DNA from: Paracoccaceae bacterium
GTDB taxonomy: Bacteria > Pseudomonadota > Alphaproteobacteria > Rhodobacterales > Rhodobacteraceae
Direction: 5' to 3'
NCBI GenBank assembly: GCA_027486345.1
Contig: JAIXPH010000058.1
Span: 1-57,279 of the forward strand
DNA length: 57,279 nucleotides
Part shown: piece by piece, positions 32,584 through 43,761 of the stretch
Numbering within the stretch: the stretch's first letter is position 1
How the letters are laid out: each line of letters begins with the position of its first letter
Made by a program: the position numbers and the translations under genes
The notes under the pieces: model-generated
What the model was told of the DNA's origin: nothing
Databases searched by the model: none
The model's input: the letters and a program-made list of their open reading frames with translations, nothing else

Positions 32584-33419
32584 GCCGATAGAACGGCGGC
32601 GCGGGTGGCCTCGTCCACCTCTGGCCGCTGGCCGAACCAGCGTTCAAAGCCGGGTGCTGCCTGATGCAAGAGCATCCCCAGACCATCGACCACGGTGCAG
32701 CCCTTGTCCTGGGCCTCGATCAGGAATTGGGTCATCAGGGGGGTATAGACGATGTCGGTCACCAAGGCGGTGGGGGACAGTGTCTCAAGCGGGACGTTGA
32801 AATCGCTTTTGCCGGTCATGCCGAGGGCGGTGGTGTTCACCACCGTCGCCGCCCCGTCCAGCATGGCGGGGGCCTGCACCCATTCCTGTACGGTGATCTT
32901 GGCACCGAAATCGGCCTTGATCGCCTCTGCCCGCGCCCTTGTGCGATTGGTCAGGCGGATTTCCGGCACCCCCACCTCGATCAGCGCGGCAATCACCGCC
33001 CGCGCGGCACCACCCGCCCCAAAGACCACGGCCGGACCGGAGGCGGGTTTCCAATGCGGCGCGTTCTGGCGCAGGTTGGCGATGAAGCCCGCGCCATCGG
33101 TGTTGTCGGCGTGGATCTTGCCATCCTTGCGGAAGATCAACGTATTCGCCGCCCCGATCAGCGCGGCGCGGTCGGTGACCACATCGGCAATCTGCAAGAT
33201 CGCCTCTTTATGCGGGATGGTCACATTGCAGCCGACAAAGCCCATCTTGGGCATCATCCGCAGCGCGTCCCGCAAATCGGATTGCGCGATGTCCAAGGGC
33301 ACGTAATGCCCCTTCAGACCGTAACGCTTCAGCCAATAGCCATGCAGCGCCGGCGAGCGGCTGTGCGCGATGGGAGAGCCGATGACCCCGGCCAGCGGGA
33401 TGCGCGGATGATCCGTCAT
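32580..33419 (-). CDS. aroE: Shikimate dehydrogenase (NADP+)
   Basis: Reduces 3-dehydroshikimate to shikimate in the aromatic amino acid pathway. 279 residues: the substrate domain has [27 protein letters not shown] (catalytic Lys) and [12 protein letters not shown] (catalytic Asp). The NADP domain has [16 protein letters not shown] and [13 protein letters not shown] chose the ATG at 33419, which overlaps the maf stop as ATGA and gives the standard N-terminus; a start 10 codons earlier would lie inside maf. Confidence 0.96.
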
Positions 33420-34015
33420 GACGCGATGTACCCTTTCAGTCCCAACCAAGCCAAGAGCGGCAGCAGGGGCAGCCCCAGAACGGTGAAATAGTCGCCTTCG
33501 ACCGCGCTGAACAGCCGGACACCTTCCTCTTCCAACTTATACGCCCCGACCGAATCGCGCACCTCCGGCCAGTTGCGCGCCAAGTATTCGTCCAGAAACG
33601 CGTCGGAAAAATCACGCATGGTCAGGCGCACCTCTCCGACGTGGCGCCAGACGGGCTCGGCCCGGTCATAGACCACGACGGCGGACAGCAGGCGGTGGGT
33701 CTGGCCGCGCAAGGTGAGGAGTTGCGCGCGCGCCTCTTCCAGCGTTTCGGGCTTACCAAAGACGGTCTTGCGGAACTCCAGCACCTGATCGCAGCCGATC
33801 ACCACGGCATCGGGGTTCCGTTCGGCCAGTTTGCGCGCTTTCATCTCGGCCAGCGTATCCGCGATGTCGCGGGGGGTGGCGGCTTCGGCCTCCAGCGCAG
33901 TGCGGATGGCGGTTTCATCGATGCGGGCGGGCAGGGCCTCGACCGTCACGCCCGCCTGCGACAGCAGGCGGGCGCGGATGGCCGATTGCGAGGCGAGGAT
34001 CAGGCGCGGGGTCAT
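33416..34015 (-). CDS. maf: Maf-type nucleotide pyrophosphatase
   Basis: 199 residues with the Maf signature [18 protein letters not shown] at the N-terminus and downstream conserved pieces [41 protein letters not shown] and [30 protein letters not shown]. These enzymes hydrolyse non-canonical or canonical NTPs and are linked to septum arrest. The gene is the first one left of the predicted origin and reads away from it; its promoter must lie within the origin region. Confidence 0.93.
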
Positions 34016-34493
34016 GACGACGGTGGAGCCTTTGGTTGCGGCGCAGAGAGAGGATCTTGGGGGCGGGCCTGTGGATAGTGCCGTTTTGTTCTCGGGGCCC
34101 GACCATGGGGCAAGCGGGGGGCAAAGCAGGGTCGGGGACGAAAGGGACAGGGTTCACGGGTGTTTGTCAAGGAAAGCGGGCGGCTTTTCCACCTGTGCGT
34201 GACCGCCCAGGCATCATGGGGGCGACAGGGTTATCCACCGTTCCACGTGAAACAGGGCTGTGGGTGGAAAGCAGAGCCAACCGTCGCGCAAGGTATTGCA
34301 AAACATGTAAGATCATGGCGCAGGATTCACAGGACGGTGCGATGCGCTACACCGGATTACCCACAGAAACACCGCTGTGAATAACTGTCTGGACCATATT
34401 CGACCAAGGGTTACCCACAGCCCCTTCATCATCATCTTCCTTTCAGAATCTTTTTCTTTAAGAAGAAGCAGTGGTCAGGGTGGAGCAGGCAGG
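34016..34493. other. Predicted chromosomal replication origin (oriC)
   Basis: No gene in 478 bases. DnaA-box-like 9-mers: perfect TTATTCACA (34384-34376, minus); one mismatch CTATCCACA (34078-34070, minus), TTATCCACC (34231-34239), TTACCCACA (34357-34365 and 34411-34419). Weaker ones occur at 34185-34193, 34267-34259 (minus) and 34324-34332. An AT-rich stretch, including CTTTTTCTTTAAG, spans about 34424-34470 next to the last box and could be the unwinding element. GANTC sites (CcrM) lie at 34324 and 34446, and a parS-like palindrome at 34239. Genes on the left (maf, aroE, coaE, dnaQ) run left and those on the right (hemJ, rho, mnmE, mnmG, parAB) run right, as expected for a bidirectional origin. 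The maf-aroE-coaE-dnaQ side matches the known Caulobacter/Rickettsia origin neighbourhood. Confidence 0.8.
34239..34254. promoter_or_regulatory. parS-like palindrome inside oriC
   Basis: CGTTCCACGTGAAACA matches the ParB site TGTTTCACGTGAAACA at 14 of 16 bases; the inner 14-mer has one mismatch. It shares its first base with the end of the DnaA-like box at 34231-34239. Possible low-affinity ParB site. Confidence 0.5.
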
Positions 34494-34943
34494 ATGGACG
34501 GGTTTCTGGCGGATATGTATCCTTGGACCAAGGCGCTGCACGTGGTGTCCGTGGTCGCCTGGATGGCCGGGCTGTTCTATCTGCCGCGTCTCTTCGTCTA
34601 CCATGTCGAGGAGGTCGGTCGCGGCAGCCCCACGGACCTGCTGTTCCAGACGATGGAACGACGCCTGCTGCGCGCGATCATGAATCCGGCGATGGTGGCG
34701 ACCTGGGTCTTCGGGCTGGCGCTGGTCTTCACACCGGGCATCGTGGTCTGGTCAGAGGTCTGGCCCTGGACCAAGGCGGCAGCGGTGCTGGGGATGACGT
34801 GGTTCCACCATTGGCTGGGCCTGCGCCGCAAGGATTTTGTCGAAGGCCAGAACACGCTGACCGGGCGCAGCTACCGCATGATGAATGAGGTGCCGACGCT
34901 TCTGCTCATCCTCATCGTGTTTTCCGTCATCGTGAAATGGTGA
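34494..34943 (+). CDS. hemJ: Protoporphyrinogen oxidase HemJ
   Basis: Converts protoporphyrinogen IX to protoporphyrin IX in organisms lacking HemG/HemY. 149 residues, four membrane helices, with the family N-terminus YPWTKALHVVSVVAWMAGLF (conserved His) and PRLFVYHVE; MNPAMVATWVFGLALVF, WPWTKAAAVLGMTWFHHWLG and a final LLLILIVFSVIVKW follow. I chose the ATG at 34494 (AGGCAGG upstream) over an open frame that runs back into the origin. It is the first gene right of the predicted origin; hemW at 42220 is also haem related. The hemE gene often found here is absent. Confidence 0.9.
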   Translation: MDGFLADMYPWTKALHVVSVVAWMAGLFYLPRLFVYHVEEVGRGSPTDLLFQTMERRLLRAIMNPAMVATWVFGLALVFTPGIVVWSEVWPWTKAAAVLGMTWFHHWLGLRRKDFVEGQNTLTGRSYRMMNEVPTLLLILIVFSVIVKW

Positions 34944-37678: not shown

Positions 37679-39553
37679 GTGTTTCACGTGAAACATTTTG
37701 ACGTCATCGTCATTGGTGGCGGCCATGCCGGTTCCGAAGCGGCAGCGGCCTCGGCCCGTATGGGCGCGCGCACGGCGCTGGTGACGCTGCGGATCGACGG
37801 GATCGGCGTCATGTCCTGCAATCCGGCGATTGGCGGGCTGGGCAAGGGCCATCTGGTGCGCGAAATCGACGCGATGGATGGCGTGATGGGGCGCGTGGCA
37901 GACAAGGCGGCCATCCAGTACCGCCTGCTGAACCGGCGCAAGGGCCCAGCCGTGCAAGGTCCGCGCACGCAGGCCGACCGGAAGCTCTACCGCCAGGCGA
38001 TGCTGGCCGAGTTGTCGGCGACGCCGAATCTGTCGCTTGTGGAAGGCGAGGTTGCGGATCTGATCCAGGACGCCGGCCGATTCGCTGGCGTTGTTCTGGC
38101 GGATGGCAGTGCGATCACCGCGCAAGCCGTGATCCTGACGGCGGGCACCTTCTTGAACGGTTTGATCCATATCGGGGACGTCAAACGCCCCGGCGGCCGG
38201 ATGGGTGACCGCCCGTCACTGCCGCTTGCCGCGCGTCTGGCGGCGCTGGATCTGGGGCGGGGACGCCTCAAGACCGGCACCCCGCCGCGTCTGGATGGCA
38301 AGACCATCGATTGGGCAAAGTTGGACAGCCAGCCCGCCGATGATGACCCGGTGATGTTCTCTTTCCTGCACAAGACGCCCTTTGTCCGGCAAATCGCTTG
38401 CGGGATCACCCATACCAACGAACAGACCCACGACATCATCCGCCGCAACCTCGACCGCTCGGCCATGTATGGCGGCCATATCGAGGGCGTCGGTCCCCGG
38501 TATTGCCCCTCGATCGAGGACAAGGTCGTCCGCTTTGCGGACAAGACCGGGCATCAGGTGTTTCTGGAGCCGGAAGGGTTGGACGACGACACCGTCTATC
38601 CCAACGGCATCTCCACCTCGCTGCCCGAGGATGTGCAGACGGATTATGTCCGGTCCATCTATGGGCTGGAGTCCGTTCGCATCCTGCAACCGGGATATGC
38701 CATCGAATACGACTACTTCGATCCGCGCGGCCTGCAGTCGACGCTCGAGGTGAAATCTGCCCCAGGTCTGTATTTCGCCGGTCAGATCAATGGCACCACC
38801 GGATATGAAGAGGCCGCAGCACAGGGAATGGTGGCCGGTTTCAACGCGGCGGCGGCGGCCTTGGGCCGTGACCCGGTCACGTTCAGCCGGGCTGACAGCT
38901 ATATCGGTGTGATGATCGACGATCTGACGACGCGCGGGGTGACCGAACCCTATCGCATGTTCACCTCACGTGCGGAATATCGTCTCGCCTTGCGGGCGGA
39001 CAATGCCGACCAGCGCCTGACCCCACAGGCCATCCGCATCGGTGCGGCGGGCGAGGCGCGGATGCGCGCCTTTGAGGACAAGATGGCGCAATTGACCGCC
39101 GCGCGGTCCGTGTTGGAGGCGCATCGCGTTTCCCCGAAAGAGGCGATTGCCGCAGGGGTGTCGGTCAGTCAGGACGGCGTCCGCCGCTCTGGCTTTGACC
39201 TGCTGTCGCTGGGCGAAACGGCGCAGTCGGCGGTGGAAACGCTGTTTCCGGAGTTTGCGGCTTTTGACGGCGCGATCCGTCAGCAGGTGGCGATAGACGC
39301 GCTCTATGCCCAATACCTTGACCGCCAGAACGAGGATATCGCCATGCTGCGGCGCGAAGAGGCTGCGGAAATACCGCTGTCCTTCGATTATGATGTGCTG
39401 TCGGGCCTGTCGAACGAATTGACGACCAAGCTCAAGCGGGTTCGTCCGGCCAATCTGGCGCAGGCCGCGCGGATTGAGGGGATGACGCCAGCGGCGCTGA
39501 CCTTGATCCTCGCGCATCTGCGCAAGGCGCAACGGGCCAGAGCGACGGCATGA
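37679..39553 (+). CDS. mnmG: tRNA uridine-5-carboxymethylaminomethyl modification enzyme MnmG
   Basis: FAD-dependent partner of MnmE. 624 residues from a GTG at 37679: FHVKH leader, then the FAD motif [60 protein letters not shown] and the C-terminal [23 protein letters not shown] at 37688 is an alternative start that would drop three residues. The first codons are made of a perfect parS site (37680-37695), so ParB binding could affect translation or transcription of this stretch. It overlaps rsmG by 4 bases. Confidence 0.97.
37680..37695. promoter_or_regulatory. Perfect parS site at the start of mnmG
   Basis: TGTTTCACGTGAAACA, a perfect 16-bp match to the conserved chromosomal ParB-binding site. 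It begins one base into the mnmG GTG and encodes residues 2-6 (FHVKH). It lies 3.2 kb from the predicted origin and 2.5 kb from parA. Confidence 0.9.
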
Positions 39554-40170
39554 CGGACACCACACTTGCGGGTGTTTATGTTTCACGTGAAACATTTGAC
39601 CGTCTGACCGCCTTGACCGCGCTGCTGCAAAAATGGAATCCGGCGATCAATCTGGTCGCCAAGTCCACAGTGCCCGAGGCATGGGGCCGCCACATCCTTG
39701 ATTCCGCCCAGCTTTACCGCCTTGCCCCGTCGCAGCCGCACCATTGGGCCGATCTGGGCAGCGGTGGTGGTTTCCCCGGTCTGGTCATCGCCATTCTGGC
39801 GCAGGAAAAGGACCCGGGCTGTCGAATCACGCTGGTCGAATCCGATCAACGAAAGGCGACTTTCCTGCGCCAGGCTGTGAGAGAGCTTGGCTTGCTCAAG
39901 GTCACGGTTCTGGCCGAGCGTATCGAAACCCTTTCGCCGCTTGCCGCCGATGTCCTCTCGGCACGCGCTCTGGCTGCCTTGCCGCAGCTTTGCCACTTTG
40001 CCCTGCGCCATCTGTCCCCCGAGGGGCTCGCCCTGTTCCCAAAGGGCGCGCAGCATCTGGATGAGGTCGCGCAGGCCCGGCACGATTGGCATTTTGACTT
40101 GTCGACGTTTCCCAGTGACACAGACCCCGCTGCGGTGGTTCTGGCAATGAAGGCGATCCAGCATGTCTGA
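39550..40170 (+). CDS. rsmG: 16S rRNA 7-methylguanosine-527 methyltransferase RsmG
   Basis: Methylates G527 of 16S rRNA (loss gives low-level streptomycin resistance). 206 residues with the N-terminal [20 protein letters not shown] helix, [11 protein letters not shown], the SAM motif [19 protein letters not shown] near residue 69 and [12 protein letters not shown]. The VSRET part is encoded by a second perfect parS site (39579-39594). It overlaps mnmG by 4 bases and parA by 8, giving the conserved mnmG-rsmG-parA-parB order. Confidence 0.97.
39579..39594. promoter_or_regulatory. Perfect parS site at the start of rsmG
   Basis: TGTTTCACGTGAAACA identical to the site at 37680-37695, 1.9 kb away. 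Here it is read in a different frame than in mnmG and encodes the VSRET of RsmG. The same palindrome is thus accommodated as FHVKH in one protein and VSRET in the other. Confidence 0.9.
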
Positions 40171-40984
40171 CCCGACCCGTCCAAATCAACCGCGCATCAT
40201 CGCCATCGCCAACCAGAAGGGCGGTGTCGGCAAGACAACCACCGCCATCAACCTTGCCGCCGGACTGGTAGAGCAGGGCGCGCGGGTGCTGCTGGTCGAT
40301 CTCGATCCGCAGGGCAACGCCTCTACAGGTCTGGGAATTGGGGCGGACCAGCGCAATCTGACGACCTATGATCTGATCGTTGACGACGCGCCTTTGGCGG
40401 AGGTGATCCAGCCCAGCACGATTCCGGGCCTCTGGGTGTGCCCGGCGAATGCGGACCTTTCCTCGGCGGATATCGAACTGGTCGCCAATGAAAAGCGCAG
40501 TTTTTTGCTGCACGACGCCCTGCGGCAGCCGTCGATGGACAGCTATGATCTGGATTTCATCCTGATCGACTGCCCGCCCTCGCTCAGCCTGCTGACCGTC
40601 AACGCGATGATTGCCTGCCATTCGGTGCTGGTGCCGCTGCAATCGGAATTCTTCGCGCTGGAAGGGCTGTCGCAACTGATGCTGACGATCCGAGAGGTCC
40701 GCCAAACCGCGAATCCCAAGCTGCGGATCGAAGGTGTTGTGTTGACCATGTATGATGGCCGCAACAGGTTGAGTCAGCAGGTCGAAACCGATGCCCGTCA
40801 GAACCTTGGTGATCTGGTGTTCCAGACCGTCATCCCCCGCAATGTCCGTGTGTCCGAAGCGCCCTCTTACGCGCTGCCAGTTCTGCACTATGATCCCCTG
40901 TCCAAGGGGTCAGAGGCGTATCGCGCCCTTGCCGCCGAACTGATCTCCCGTCACCCCGCCGCCCGCAGCAAGGAACACGCCTGA
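40163..40984 (+). CDS. parA: Chromosome partitioning ATPase ParA
   Basis: 273 residues. Deviant Walker A KGGVGKTTTAINLA with the signature Lys at residue 19, the switch region VDLDPQGNASTGLG, and IDCPPSLSLLTVNAM. A typical chromosomal (Soj-type) ParA without the N-terminal DNA-binding domain of plasmid type Ia. Moves ParB-parS complexes and so the origin region to the cell poles. Its start overlaps rsmG by 8 bases, and it shares one base with parB (TGATG). No divergence from the family seen. Confidence 0.97.
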   Translation: MSDPTRPNQPRIIAIANQKGGVGKTTTAINLAAGLVEQGARVLLVDLDPQGNASTGLGIGADQRNLTTYDLIVDDAPLAEVIQPSTIPGLWVCPANADLSSADIELVANEKRSFLLHDALRQPSMDSYDLDFILIDCPPSLSLLTVNAMIACHSVLVPLQSEFFALEGLSQLMLTIREVRQTANPKLRIEGVVLTMYDGRNRLSQQVETDARQNLGDLVFQTVIPRNVRVSEAPSYALPVLHYDPLSKGSEAYRALAAELISRHPAARSKEHA

Positions 40985-41889
40985 TGGACAGAAAGAATGA
41001 ACGCCGTGGTCTGGGACGTGGCCTGTCGGCCCTGATGGCCGATGTGAACATCGACGCCGATCCCGCCGTCGCCGAACGCCCGCGCCGCCCCGACATGCTG
41101 GTGCCGGTCGAAAAACTGGTGCCCAACCCCGACCAGCCCCGCCGCGATTTCCAGCCAGAGGCGTTGCAGGAACTGGCCTCGTCGATCCGGCAAAAGGGCG
41201 TGATCCAGCCGCTGATCGTCCGGGCGCTGCCGGATGGCAAGTTCGAGATTGTCGCCGGGGAACGTCGCTGGCGCGCCGCGCAACTGGCGCAGGTGCATGA
41301 GCTGCCGGTGATCGTGCGCGACTTCACCGATGCCGAGGTGATCGAGGTCGCGATCATCGAAAACATCCAGCGCGCCGATCTGAACGCCATCGAAGAGGCG
41401 CTGGCCTTCAAGCAGTTGATGGAGAAATTCGGTCATACGCAGGAAAAACTGGCCGAGGCGCTGTCGAAAAGCCGCAGTCACATCGCCAACCTGCTGCGCC
41501 TGCTGAACCTGCCGGACGATGTGCAGGGCCATGTCCGCGAGGGCCGCTTGTCGGCGGGCCACGCACGGGCGCTGATCACGTCGGCCAAGGCGTCAGAACT
41601 GGCACGGGCGGTGATCAGCAAGAACCTGTCGGTGCGCGAGACCGAAAATCTTGTCAAATCGCCCGAGCAAAAGGGCGCAGGCAAGACCAGCGGTCCGCGC
41701 CCCAAATCGCATGAAAAGGATGCCGATACCCGGGCCTTGGAAAATGACCTCGCCGCCGCGCTGAACATGCGGGTGGCGATTGATCACGGCATGGATGGCG
41801 GGTCGATCACGGTGCATTACCGCACGCTGGAGGATCTCGATTTCCTCTGCGCCGCGCTGTCGGTCATGCGTCGGGACGTCGCCATATGA
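40984..41889 (+). CDS. parB: Chromosome partitioning protein ParB
   Basis: Binds parS and spreads as a CTP-dependent clamp. 301 residues: N-terminal ParA-stimulating motif RRGLGRGLSALMAD (residues 8-21), CTP-binding core with VPVEKLVPNPDQPRRDF, RQKGVIQPLIVR and the GERRWRAAQL motif. The helix-turn-helix is at about 150-172 (TQEKLAEALSKSRSHIANLL). A flexible linker and the C-terminal dimerisation domain follow. The sites it should bind are at 37680, 39579 and weaker ones at 34239 and 43746. Its end overlaps a convergent gene by 26 bases. Confidence 0.97.
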   Translation: MDRKNERRGLGRGLSALMADVNIDADPAVAERPRRPDMLVPVEKLVPNPDQPRRDFQPEALQELASSIRQKGVIQPLIVRALPDGKFEIVAGERRWRAAQLAQVHELPVIVRDFTDAEVIEVAIIENIQRADLNAIEEALAFKQLMEKFGHTQEKLAEALSKSRSHIANLLRLLNLPDDVQGHVREGRLSAGHARALITSAKASELARAVISKNLSVRETENLVKSPEQKGAGKTSGPRPKSHEKDADTRALENDLAAALNMRVAIDHGMDGGSITVHYRTLEDLDFLCAALSVMRRDVAI

Positions 41890-43378: not shown

Positions 43379-43753
43379 TTATCCCTTGAACGCGGTAACC
43401 TCGATCTCGACCTTCATCTCGGGCCGGATCAGGCCCGCGATGACCATGGTGGCGGCGGGGCGGATATCGGCCAGGGCCGCACCCAGCACCGGCACCAATT
43501 CTTCGACCAGCGCGGCATCGGTGACAGTGTATTGCACCCGCACGATATCCGCCATGGTGAAGCCCGCCTGATCCAGCACGCCCGCGATGGTGGCAAAGCA
43601 GTTGCGCCCCTGATCGGCGATGCCGTCGGGCATGGTCATCGTGGCGTAATCATAGCCCGTCACGCCGGACACAAAACACCAGCCGCCCTTCACCACCGCG
43701 CGGGAATAGCCCATCGTCGCCTCGAACGGCGACCCCGTCGAAATCCGCTTCAT
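43379..43753 (-). CDS. RidA family protein (reactive enamine/imine deaminase-like)
   Basis: 124 residues. The YjgF/RidA fold is recognised from FVSGVTGYDYATMTMPDGIA, QGRNCFATIAGVLDQAGFTM, VRVQYTVTD and VVAALxD-like PVLGAALADIRPAATMVIAG; the substrate-binding Arg (LIRPEMKVEIEVTAF) is present. Members hydrolyse 2-aminoacrylate or related imines. I chose the ATG at 43753: AGGGG lies 8 bases upstream and it overlaps the rdgB stop. A GTG at 43762 would add FH-type residues. The start sits on a degenerate parS (43746-43761). Confidence 0.88.
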   Translation of the reverse strand: MKRISTGSPFEATMGYSRAVVKGGWCFVSGVTGYDYATMTMPDGIADQGRNCFATIAGVLDQAGFTMADIVRVQYTVTDAALVEELVPVLGAALADIRPAATMVIAGLIRPEMKVEIEVTAFKG

Positions 43754-43761
43754 GTGAAACA
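43746..43761. promoter_or_regulatory. Degenerate parS-like palindrome at the rdgB/ridA junction
   Basis: On the minus strand TGTTTCACATGAAGCG matches the parS consensus at 13 of 16 bases (intact left arm TGTTTCAC). Encodes FHMKR across the start of ridA, echoing FHVKH in MnmG. It may be a decayed or weak ParB site, or chance. Confidence 0.35.

Follow-up and report, generated by a model that had tools for sequence, protein, structure and literature searches.

The question raised by this locus is whether the intergenic gap between the divergent genes maf and hemJ holds the chromosomal replication origin (oriC). The DNA analysed (hereafter the window) is one whole contig of 57,279 bp from a 65-contig, 4.08-Mb draft assembly that is 97.8% complete. 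The earlier note had predicted an origin here, and the box cluster, the low duplex stability, the gene order, parABS, the conservation over 80 gaps (best 80 of 582) and the slot shared with hemE-DUF299 loci agree in supporting that prediction. As a whole, including its mechanism and the history of its flanking genes, oriC is the best explanation of positions 34016-34493, and we regard it as highly probable; judged from sequence, this is most likely an ordinary DnaA origin of known kind, which would give a draft-genome bacterium a well-supported replication origin. The features concerned, in window coordinates, are these:

34016-34493, no strand: predicted oriC, the intergenic gap separating the divergent genes maf and hemJ
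33416-34015, minus strand: maf (PF02545), left neighbour
34494-34943, plus strand: hemJ (PF03653), right neighbour
34070-34078, minus strand: DnaA box CTATCCACA, in the maf-side box region conserved in the family alignment
34231-34239, plus strand: DnaA box TTATCCACC
34289-34298, plus strand: IHF-like word CAAGGTATTG, in a conserved part of the alignment
34324-34328, no strand: GANTC, putative role only
34357-34365, plus strand: DnaA box TTACCCACA, pairs with the box at 34376
34376-34384, minus strand: DnaA box TTATTCACA, pairs with the box at 34357
34411-34419, plus strand: DnaA box TTACCCACA, ends five bases ahead of the triplet tract at 34425 (NAN phase)
34400-34468, plus strand: core element modelled as R1 (own match 34410-34467)
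34424-34441, plus strand: triplet tract CTT CAT CAT CAT CTT CCT, with C at each third position; its opposite strand is a candidate DnaA-trio array
34428-34467, no strand: presumed unwinding element, least stable 40 bp of the window by duplex stability
34446-34450, no strand: GANTC in the T-rich stretch
37680-37695, plus strand: parS, exact to consensus, at the mnmE-mnmG junction
39579-39594, plus strand: parS, exact to consensus, near the rsmG start
40163-41889, plus strand: parA (ParA-family, 40163-40984) and parB (40984-41889)

Both neighbours read outward from the gap, as had been noted, and the order maf-aroE-coaE-dnaQ-secB is indeed present. Origins of the hemE/COG1806 type have been described, with Cori of Caulobacter crescentus in the hemE/DUF299 gap (PMC1914354). 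Here the slot beside maf-aroE-coaE-dnaQ is of the Caulobacter type but is flanked by neither gene, hemE lying on another contig (C8:14836-15843) and DUF299 (PF03618) having no match anywhere in the 97.8% complete assembly, both as the earlier note had it. In the features that this account of Cori covers, the gap shares with it the maf-side position (shown for other Alphaproteobacteria), a box cluster, an unstable part and perhaps an IHF site, but hemE and DUF299 no longer flank it and TTAA-N7-TTAA is absent (PMC1914354).

For comparison we used the best 80 of 582 confirmed related stretches, the set of gaps consisting of 79 relatives and the window; the closest hemJ loci among these belong to a Rhodobacteraceae MAG, Rhodobacter MAGs, R. 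ruber and Tabrizicola. The arrangement maf-gap-hemJ is kept in 79 of the 80 loci (best 80 of 582), the sequence of the remaining one (L072) ending before maf, and all 80 have rho after hemJ, some 1 kb farther away in L036 and L049. Conservation in the alignment peaks at 34061-34075, around the maf-side box, and at 34405-34465, which spans a box, a GC-rich spacer, the triplet tract and a T-rich stretch.

We counted as DnaA boxes all sites with at most one mismatch to TTATCCACA. The window has ten against 3.59 expected, a number reached in none of 100 shuffles, and five of the ten are in the gap (34070-, 34231+, 34357+, 34376- and 34411+), where 2000 dinucleotide shuffles of the gap gave a mean of 0.07 and never reached five. 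Elsewhere in the window no 480-bp stretch holds more than one box, and the 5,656 tiles of 480 bp from 2.76 Mb of the relatives' sequence, some of which border the gap itself, hold at most two each. The five boxes proposed before are real matches, and three of them do crowd into 34357-34419, but the box described as perfect (34376-34384, minus strand) reads TTATTCACA, which matches TTATNCACA in full and differs from TTATCCACA at one base; measured against TTATCCACA, each of the five boxes has one mismatch. The divergent pair 34357/34376, written as TTAYNCACA-N0-30-TGTGNRTAA (a pattern derived after the pair had been seen), occurs at one place in the 4.08 Mb of the genome, and its reversed control at none. 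The 80 gaps (best 80 of 582) hold 2.9 boxes on average and their shuffles 0.09, and two gaps lack any box with at most one mismatch. In several relatives three boxes stand at similar distances from hemJ, for example at -138, -119 and -84 in L013 compared with -137, -118 and -83 in the window. Of the 80 gaps (best 80 of 582), 61 have a box adjoining the tract that differs from TTATCCACA at no more than two bases, and in the other 19 this box differs at three or more.

As in DnaA-dependent origins, the intergenic box cluster is adjoined by an unstable AT-rich element. An AT-rich stretch at about 34424-34470 had been pointed out, and of 57,240 positions in the window (40-bp stretches, by stacking energies) the one starting at 34428 ranks first for low duplex stability. 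We modelled the core of the gap from sequence alone (R1; 72 positions from 80 Rhodobacteraceae sequences, best 80 of 582). With a training set that included the own gap and the gaps of five other genomes searched with it, R1 had a single significant match in the own genome, at 34410-34467 (E 1.6e-9; next 0.37).

Outside the family, R1 counts were read by eye from two tables, in which places are listed for E up to 0.1. DUF299 is present in 99 of 144 genomes of the class and in none of the three Rhodobacteraceae among these. Thirty-eight of the 99, all from other families, also have a listed R1 place (E at most 0.1); the other 61 have none listed, some having a weak match whose place is not given. 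Among the matches listed, the best one is 234-387 bp from DUF299 and always divergent from it in 24 of the 38 genomes, and away from this slot in 14. At E of at most 0.01, 17 of 22 are at the DUF299 slot, and among the other five the match in G127 is 3.6 kb away but adjoins hemE. Many weak R1 matches occur in small genomes without DUF299. The box-plus-triplet core yields a sequence model that locates origins in part of the draft Alphaproteobacteria.

Gene content around DUF299 points to the same place. In 30 DUF299 loci of other families, hemE is present in 29, maf in 27 and both in 26, on opposite sides of DUF299, and one locus (L156) has hemE and then hemJ. In ten of our relatives hemE is elsewhere, and the three chromosomes measured have it 0.5-0.9 Mb away from the gap. 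On these sequence comparisons, maf-gap-hemJ is the same slot as maf-DUF299-gap-hemE of other Alphaproteobacteria; with DUF299 absent and hemE elsewhere, DUF299 was evidently lost and hemE moved in the Rhodobacteraceae while the origin slot stayed, so that maf and hemJ became the flanks of an origin that stayed put. An origin can on this evidence keep its place when its landmarks hemE and DUF299 disappear or relocate, and it would be overlooked if annotation relied on these two genes only. Flank losses are also seen outside the family: L193 (G069) has rho-element-maf, and L190 (G111) has rho on the expected hemE side.

The parAB genes and both parS sites, exact to the consensus, lie within 8 kb of the gap, as the earlier note had stated, although the ParA-family gene at 40163-40984 scores under NCBIfam equivalog cut-offs. 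Counted from the hemJ start over the 80 loci (best 80 of 582), the +3-kb bin contains 75 parS sites and the +5-kb bin 72. Additional parS sites occur in some relatives at about -2 kb and +9 kb on this scale, and the window has a weaker parS-like word with three mismatches at 43746-43761, beyond parB. Proximity of parAB was a criterion for the Ori-Finder-predicted oriCs of 101 Rhodobacteraceae (PMC6699656); these are of the same family as the window, whose own genome is a draft, and the passages of that report considered here say nothing of flanking genes, of how the boxes are arranged or of a triplet tract. The origin regions of R. sphaeroides have been located by cumulative skew (PMC6315104), and further literature was consulted (PMC8116508, PMC10225481, PMC4468827, PMC5043019, each in part). 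Among the papers listed in our literature search, which had supplements and most subscription papers outside it, no title or abstract start dealt with a triplet tract of alphaproteobacterial origins or with a maf-hemJ origin.

We used GC skew at fourfold sites, corrected for gene strand, to compare the left and right sides of the gap (Mann-Whitney) in twenty 20-kb stretches from each of six genomes, with 20 further stretches from two. The skew minimum that an origin leads one to expect was borne out in four single-contig relatives of other genera, with left/right values of -0.048/+0.031 in G001 (p 0.017), -0.033/+0.079 in G002 (p 0.0003), -0.046/+0.072 in G003 (p 0.045) and -0.073/+0.050 in G141 (p 0.002), in one of them (G001, QY30) only to within the 50-110 kb that separate its raw skew switch from the gap. 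It failed in contigs of two nearer relatives, R. ruber (G006; -0.088/-0.257, p 0.029, with values from 19 of the 20 stretches) and Tabrizicola TH137 (G007; -0.220/-0.309, p 0.28), both in contig coordinates. Neither has a minus-to-plus switch at the gap, and close to the gap the signs of the two flanks in R. ruber are even the reverse of those expected. Coding-strand bias as the source of the raw skew in these two was rejected for most stretches when the fourfold sites of plus and minus genes were taken separately; the two sets mostly agree, so this is true strand skew, which counts against a simple origin picture. Along these contigs (C1 of G006 and C11 of G007; L206-L245 and L266-L285) the fourfold skew is strong, mostly 0.1-0.5, and its sign flips in patches; values are low in the roughly 10 kb nearest the gap and here and there elsewhere. 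The patchy flips may reflect recent or repeated inversions, or have another cause.

Around the gap itself, leading genes exceed lagging genes in 60 of 80 loci (best 80 of 582; Wilcoxon p 3e-5, kinship among loci ignored), with the window taken whole, the relatives over about 20 kb or less and one locus excluded because it had too few sites. In the window the two classes of genes hardly differ (+0.015), and the sign changes of its skew lie close to 15 kb and 40 kb instead of 34 kb. Negative values were obtained for 20 loci, among them L004, L005, L006, L009, L010, L013, L016 and L019 but neither of the two nearest relatives, L002 and L003.

That the skew does not switch at the gap in the contigs of R. 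ruber and Tabrizicola, nor clearly in the window, is what would be expected if the origin had been relocated in the window's subclade and the gap were a relic that still binds DnaA. We nevertheless consider this improbable: the core element is kept in the window, L002 and L003, R1 has its one significant match in the own genome here, parS and parAB still adjoin the gap, and the skew of R. ruber and Tabrizicola flips patchily, as repeated inversions would presumably make it do. An origin at dnaA was rejected because the 4.4 kb around the own dnaA, in which DnaA boxes were looked for, contain none, and this too speaks against relocation.

DnaA also regulates genes, and the gap lies between divergent genes, as would a DnaA-regulated promoter region of maf and hemJ that is no origin. 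This we hold to be very improbable, since other families carry the element upstream of hemE instead of hemJ, and the hemE locus of the own genome lacks it; the window's lowest duplex stability is in the gap, and a search of the gap for a sigma-70-like promoter, a weak test in this bacterial group, found none. That box-like words, each with its one mismatch, clustered here by chance is hardly credible in view of the shuffles, the tiles, the conservation in relatives and the out-of-family R1 matches.

The sequence itself shows the boxes, the low stability and the tract, together with where they lie and how they are conserved. Under the oriC reading, we infer DnaA binding, opening, initiation and segregation at the gap as follows. 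DnaA-ATP would bind the box array, with the pair 34357/34376 and the box at 34411 as the probable platform, and a DnaA oligomer would pass from box 34411 onto one strand of the triplet tract 34424-34441. The duplex would open at the tract and along the T-rich stretch to about 34467, helicase would be loaded, and two forks would depart, one past maf and one past hemJ. ParB on the two parS sites 3-5 kb away would then move the new origin.

The triplet tract lies within one of the gap's two most conserved parts (family alignment, best 80 of 582). In the window the box at 34411 is followed by GCCCC and then by the tract, phased on C from 34424. Lag-3 identity over the 80 sequences (best 80 of 582) is 0.63 in the tract versus 0.25 elsewhere in the gaps. 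In the same 80 (best 80 of 582), C is found 65, 67, 65, 78 and 58 times at columns 34424, 34427, 34430, 34433 and 34436, A follows it at 34428, 34431 and 34434 in 66-68, and the third base is T or A. In-phase runs of at least three C-first triplets occur in 72 of the 80 (best 80 of 582) versus 37% of same-letter shuffles. In other families the figure is 28 of 29 versus 51% shuffled, which is biased upward because the tract was there chosen by lag-3 identity; the best G-free 15-mer of these families has a mean lag-3 identity of 0.64 versus 0.33 shuffled, with at least 0.6 in 14 of 29, and their tracts take the forms CTA, CCA and CAA.

The window shares a box, a 5-bp GC-rich spacer and a triplet array with the basal unwinding system (BUS), as far as the relevant parts of PMC8287927 and PMC10721633 describe it. 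The search pattern for DnaA-trios is (.A.)3+, and their consensus is 3'-GAT-5', above all adjoining the box (PMC8287927). The window's tract fits the pattern, with six NAN triplets in a row on the lower strand behind the spacer, and has its box within 16 bp of at least three NAN triplets. Lower-strand NAN runs of at least three occur in 59 of the 80 tracts (best 80 of 582; control 19%), but upper-strand runs occur in 66 of 80 (best 80 of 582; control 14%), so that the pattern alone picks no strand. The GAT consensus next to the box is not found, the box-proximal triplet being CTT (3'-GAA-5'). By column, the family's commonest bases there are C, T and A, which is 3'-GAT-5' (best 80 of 582), and CTA begins only 21 of 80 C-first runs (best 80 of 582). 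Compared with 3'-GAT-5', the window reads 3'-GAA-5' and then three 3'-GTA-5' when phased on G, or 3'-AAG-5' and then three 3'-TAG-5' when phased on A. The would-be middle-adenine positions vary between A and T, and in the G-first phase two bases of the triplet are conserved and the third is freer. This phase resembles the B. subtilis DnaA structure, in which, in the part of the source relevant here, two bases are captured and one is free (PMC10721633). The tract, new here, fits the general DnaA-trio pattern, not the GAT consensus, and may be a variant of the strand-opening sequence.

At the level of the protein, the own DnaA and those of three relatives have Tyr aligned to B. subtilis Asn187, the residue in contact with the middle adenine. 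In these four Rhodobacteraceae Glu183 and Glu228 are kept, Arg202 is Lys and Asn196 is Arg. At the Asn187 position the same search aligns Asn for 2z4r and Gln for 1l8q, the DnaA of T. maritima and A. aeolicus, respectively. The joint occurrence of Tyr for Asn187 and this tract form is a correlation within one family, not a test. One tentative explanation, which we think rather unlikely, is that the tract is a divergent DnaA-trio array in which the conserved pair that is captured in Rhodobacteraceae would be 3'-GT-5' (upper strand CAT/CAA) in place of 3'-GA-5', with the third base free and the DnaA pocket altered to match (Tyr for Asn187, with the guanine contacts kept, Glu228 as Glu and Arg202 as Lys). 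Given the CTA, CCA and CAA forms in other Alphaproteobacteria, initiator and single-strand target would then have drifted together across the class. Trios without a middle adenine are named as an open point in the part of the BUS work considered here (PMC8287927), and if the tract is such a variant they could be tested with short DNA scaffolds and one protein residue.

Several other motifs were considered within the gap. A parS-like word, CGTTCCACGTGAAACA at 34239-34254, has two mismatches to TGTTTCACGTGAAACA and one base in common with the box at 34231-34239; it was rejected as a part of the origin because it occurs in none of the 79 relatives' gaps (best 80 of 582; the L072 gap is incomplete). 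An RNA element was likewise rejected, with only two Rfam matches far below gathering scores. A CtrA-controlled origin is unsupported, as the window's gap contains no CtrA site TTAA-N7-TTAA, which 5 of the 80 gaps carry (best 80 of 582). The two GANTC sites reported earlier, at 34324 and 34446, are both present and are presumably of the CcrM type. GANTC occurs in the 40-nt T-rich stretch of 17 of the 80 gaps (best 80 of 582) versus about 8 expected from a background of 0.10 per 40 bases, which makes a special role for it weak. In the IHF-like word at 34289-34298 the next base is C, so that the window's aligned word misses the last base of the IHF pattern YAANNNNYTGW. This pattern is found somewhere in 54 of the 80 gaps (best 80 of 582) versus 14.6 in mononucleotide shuffles.
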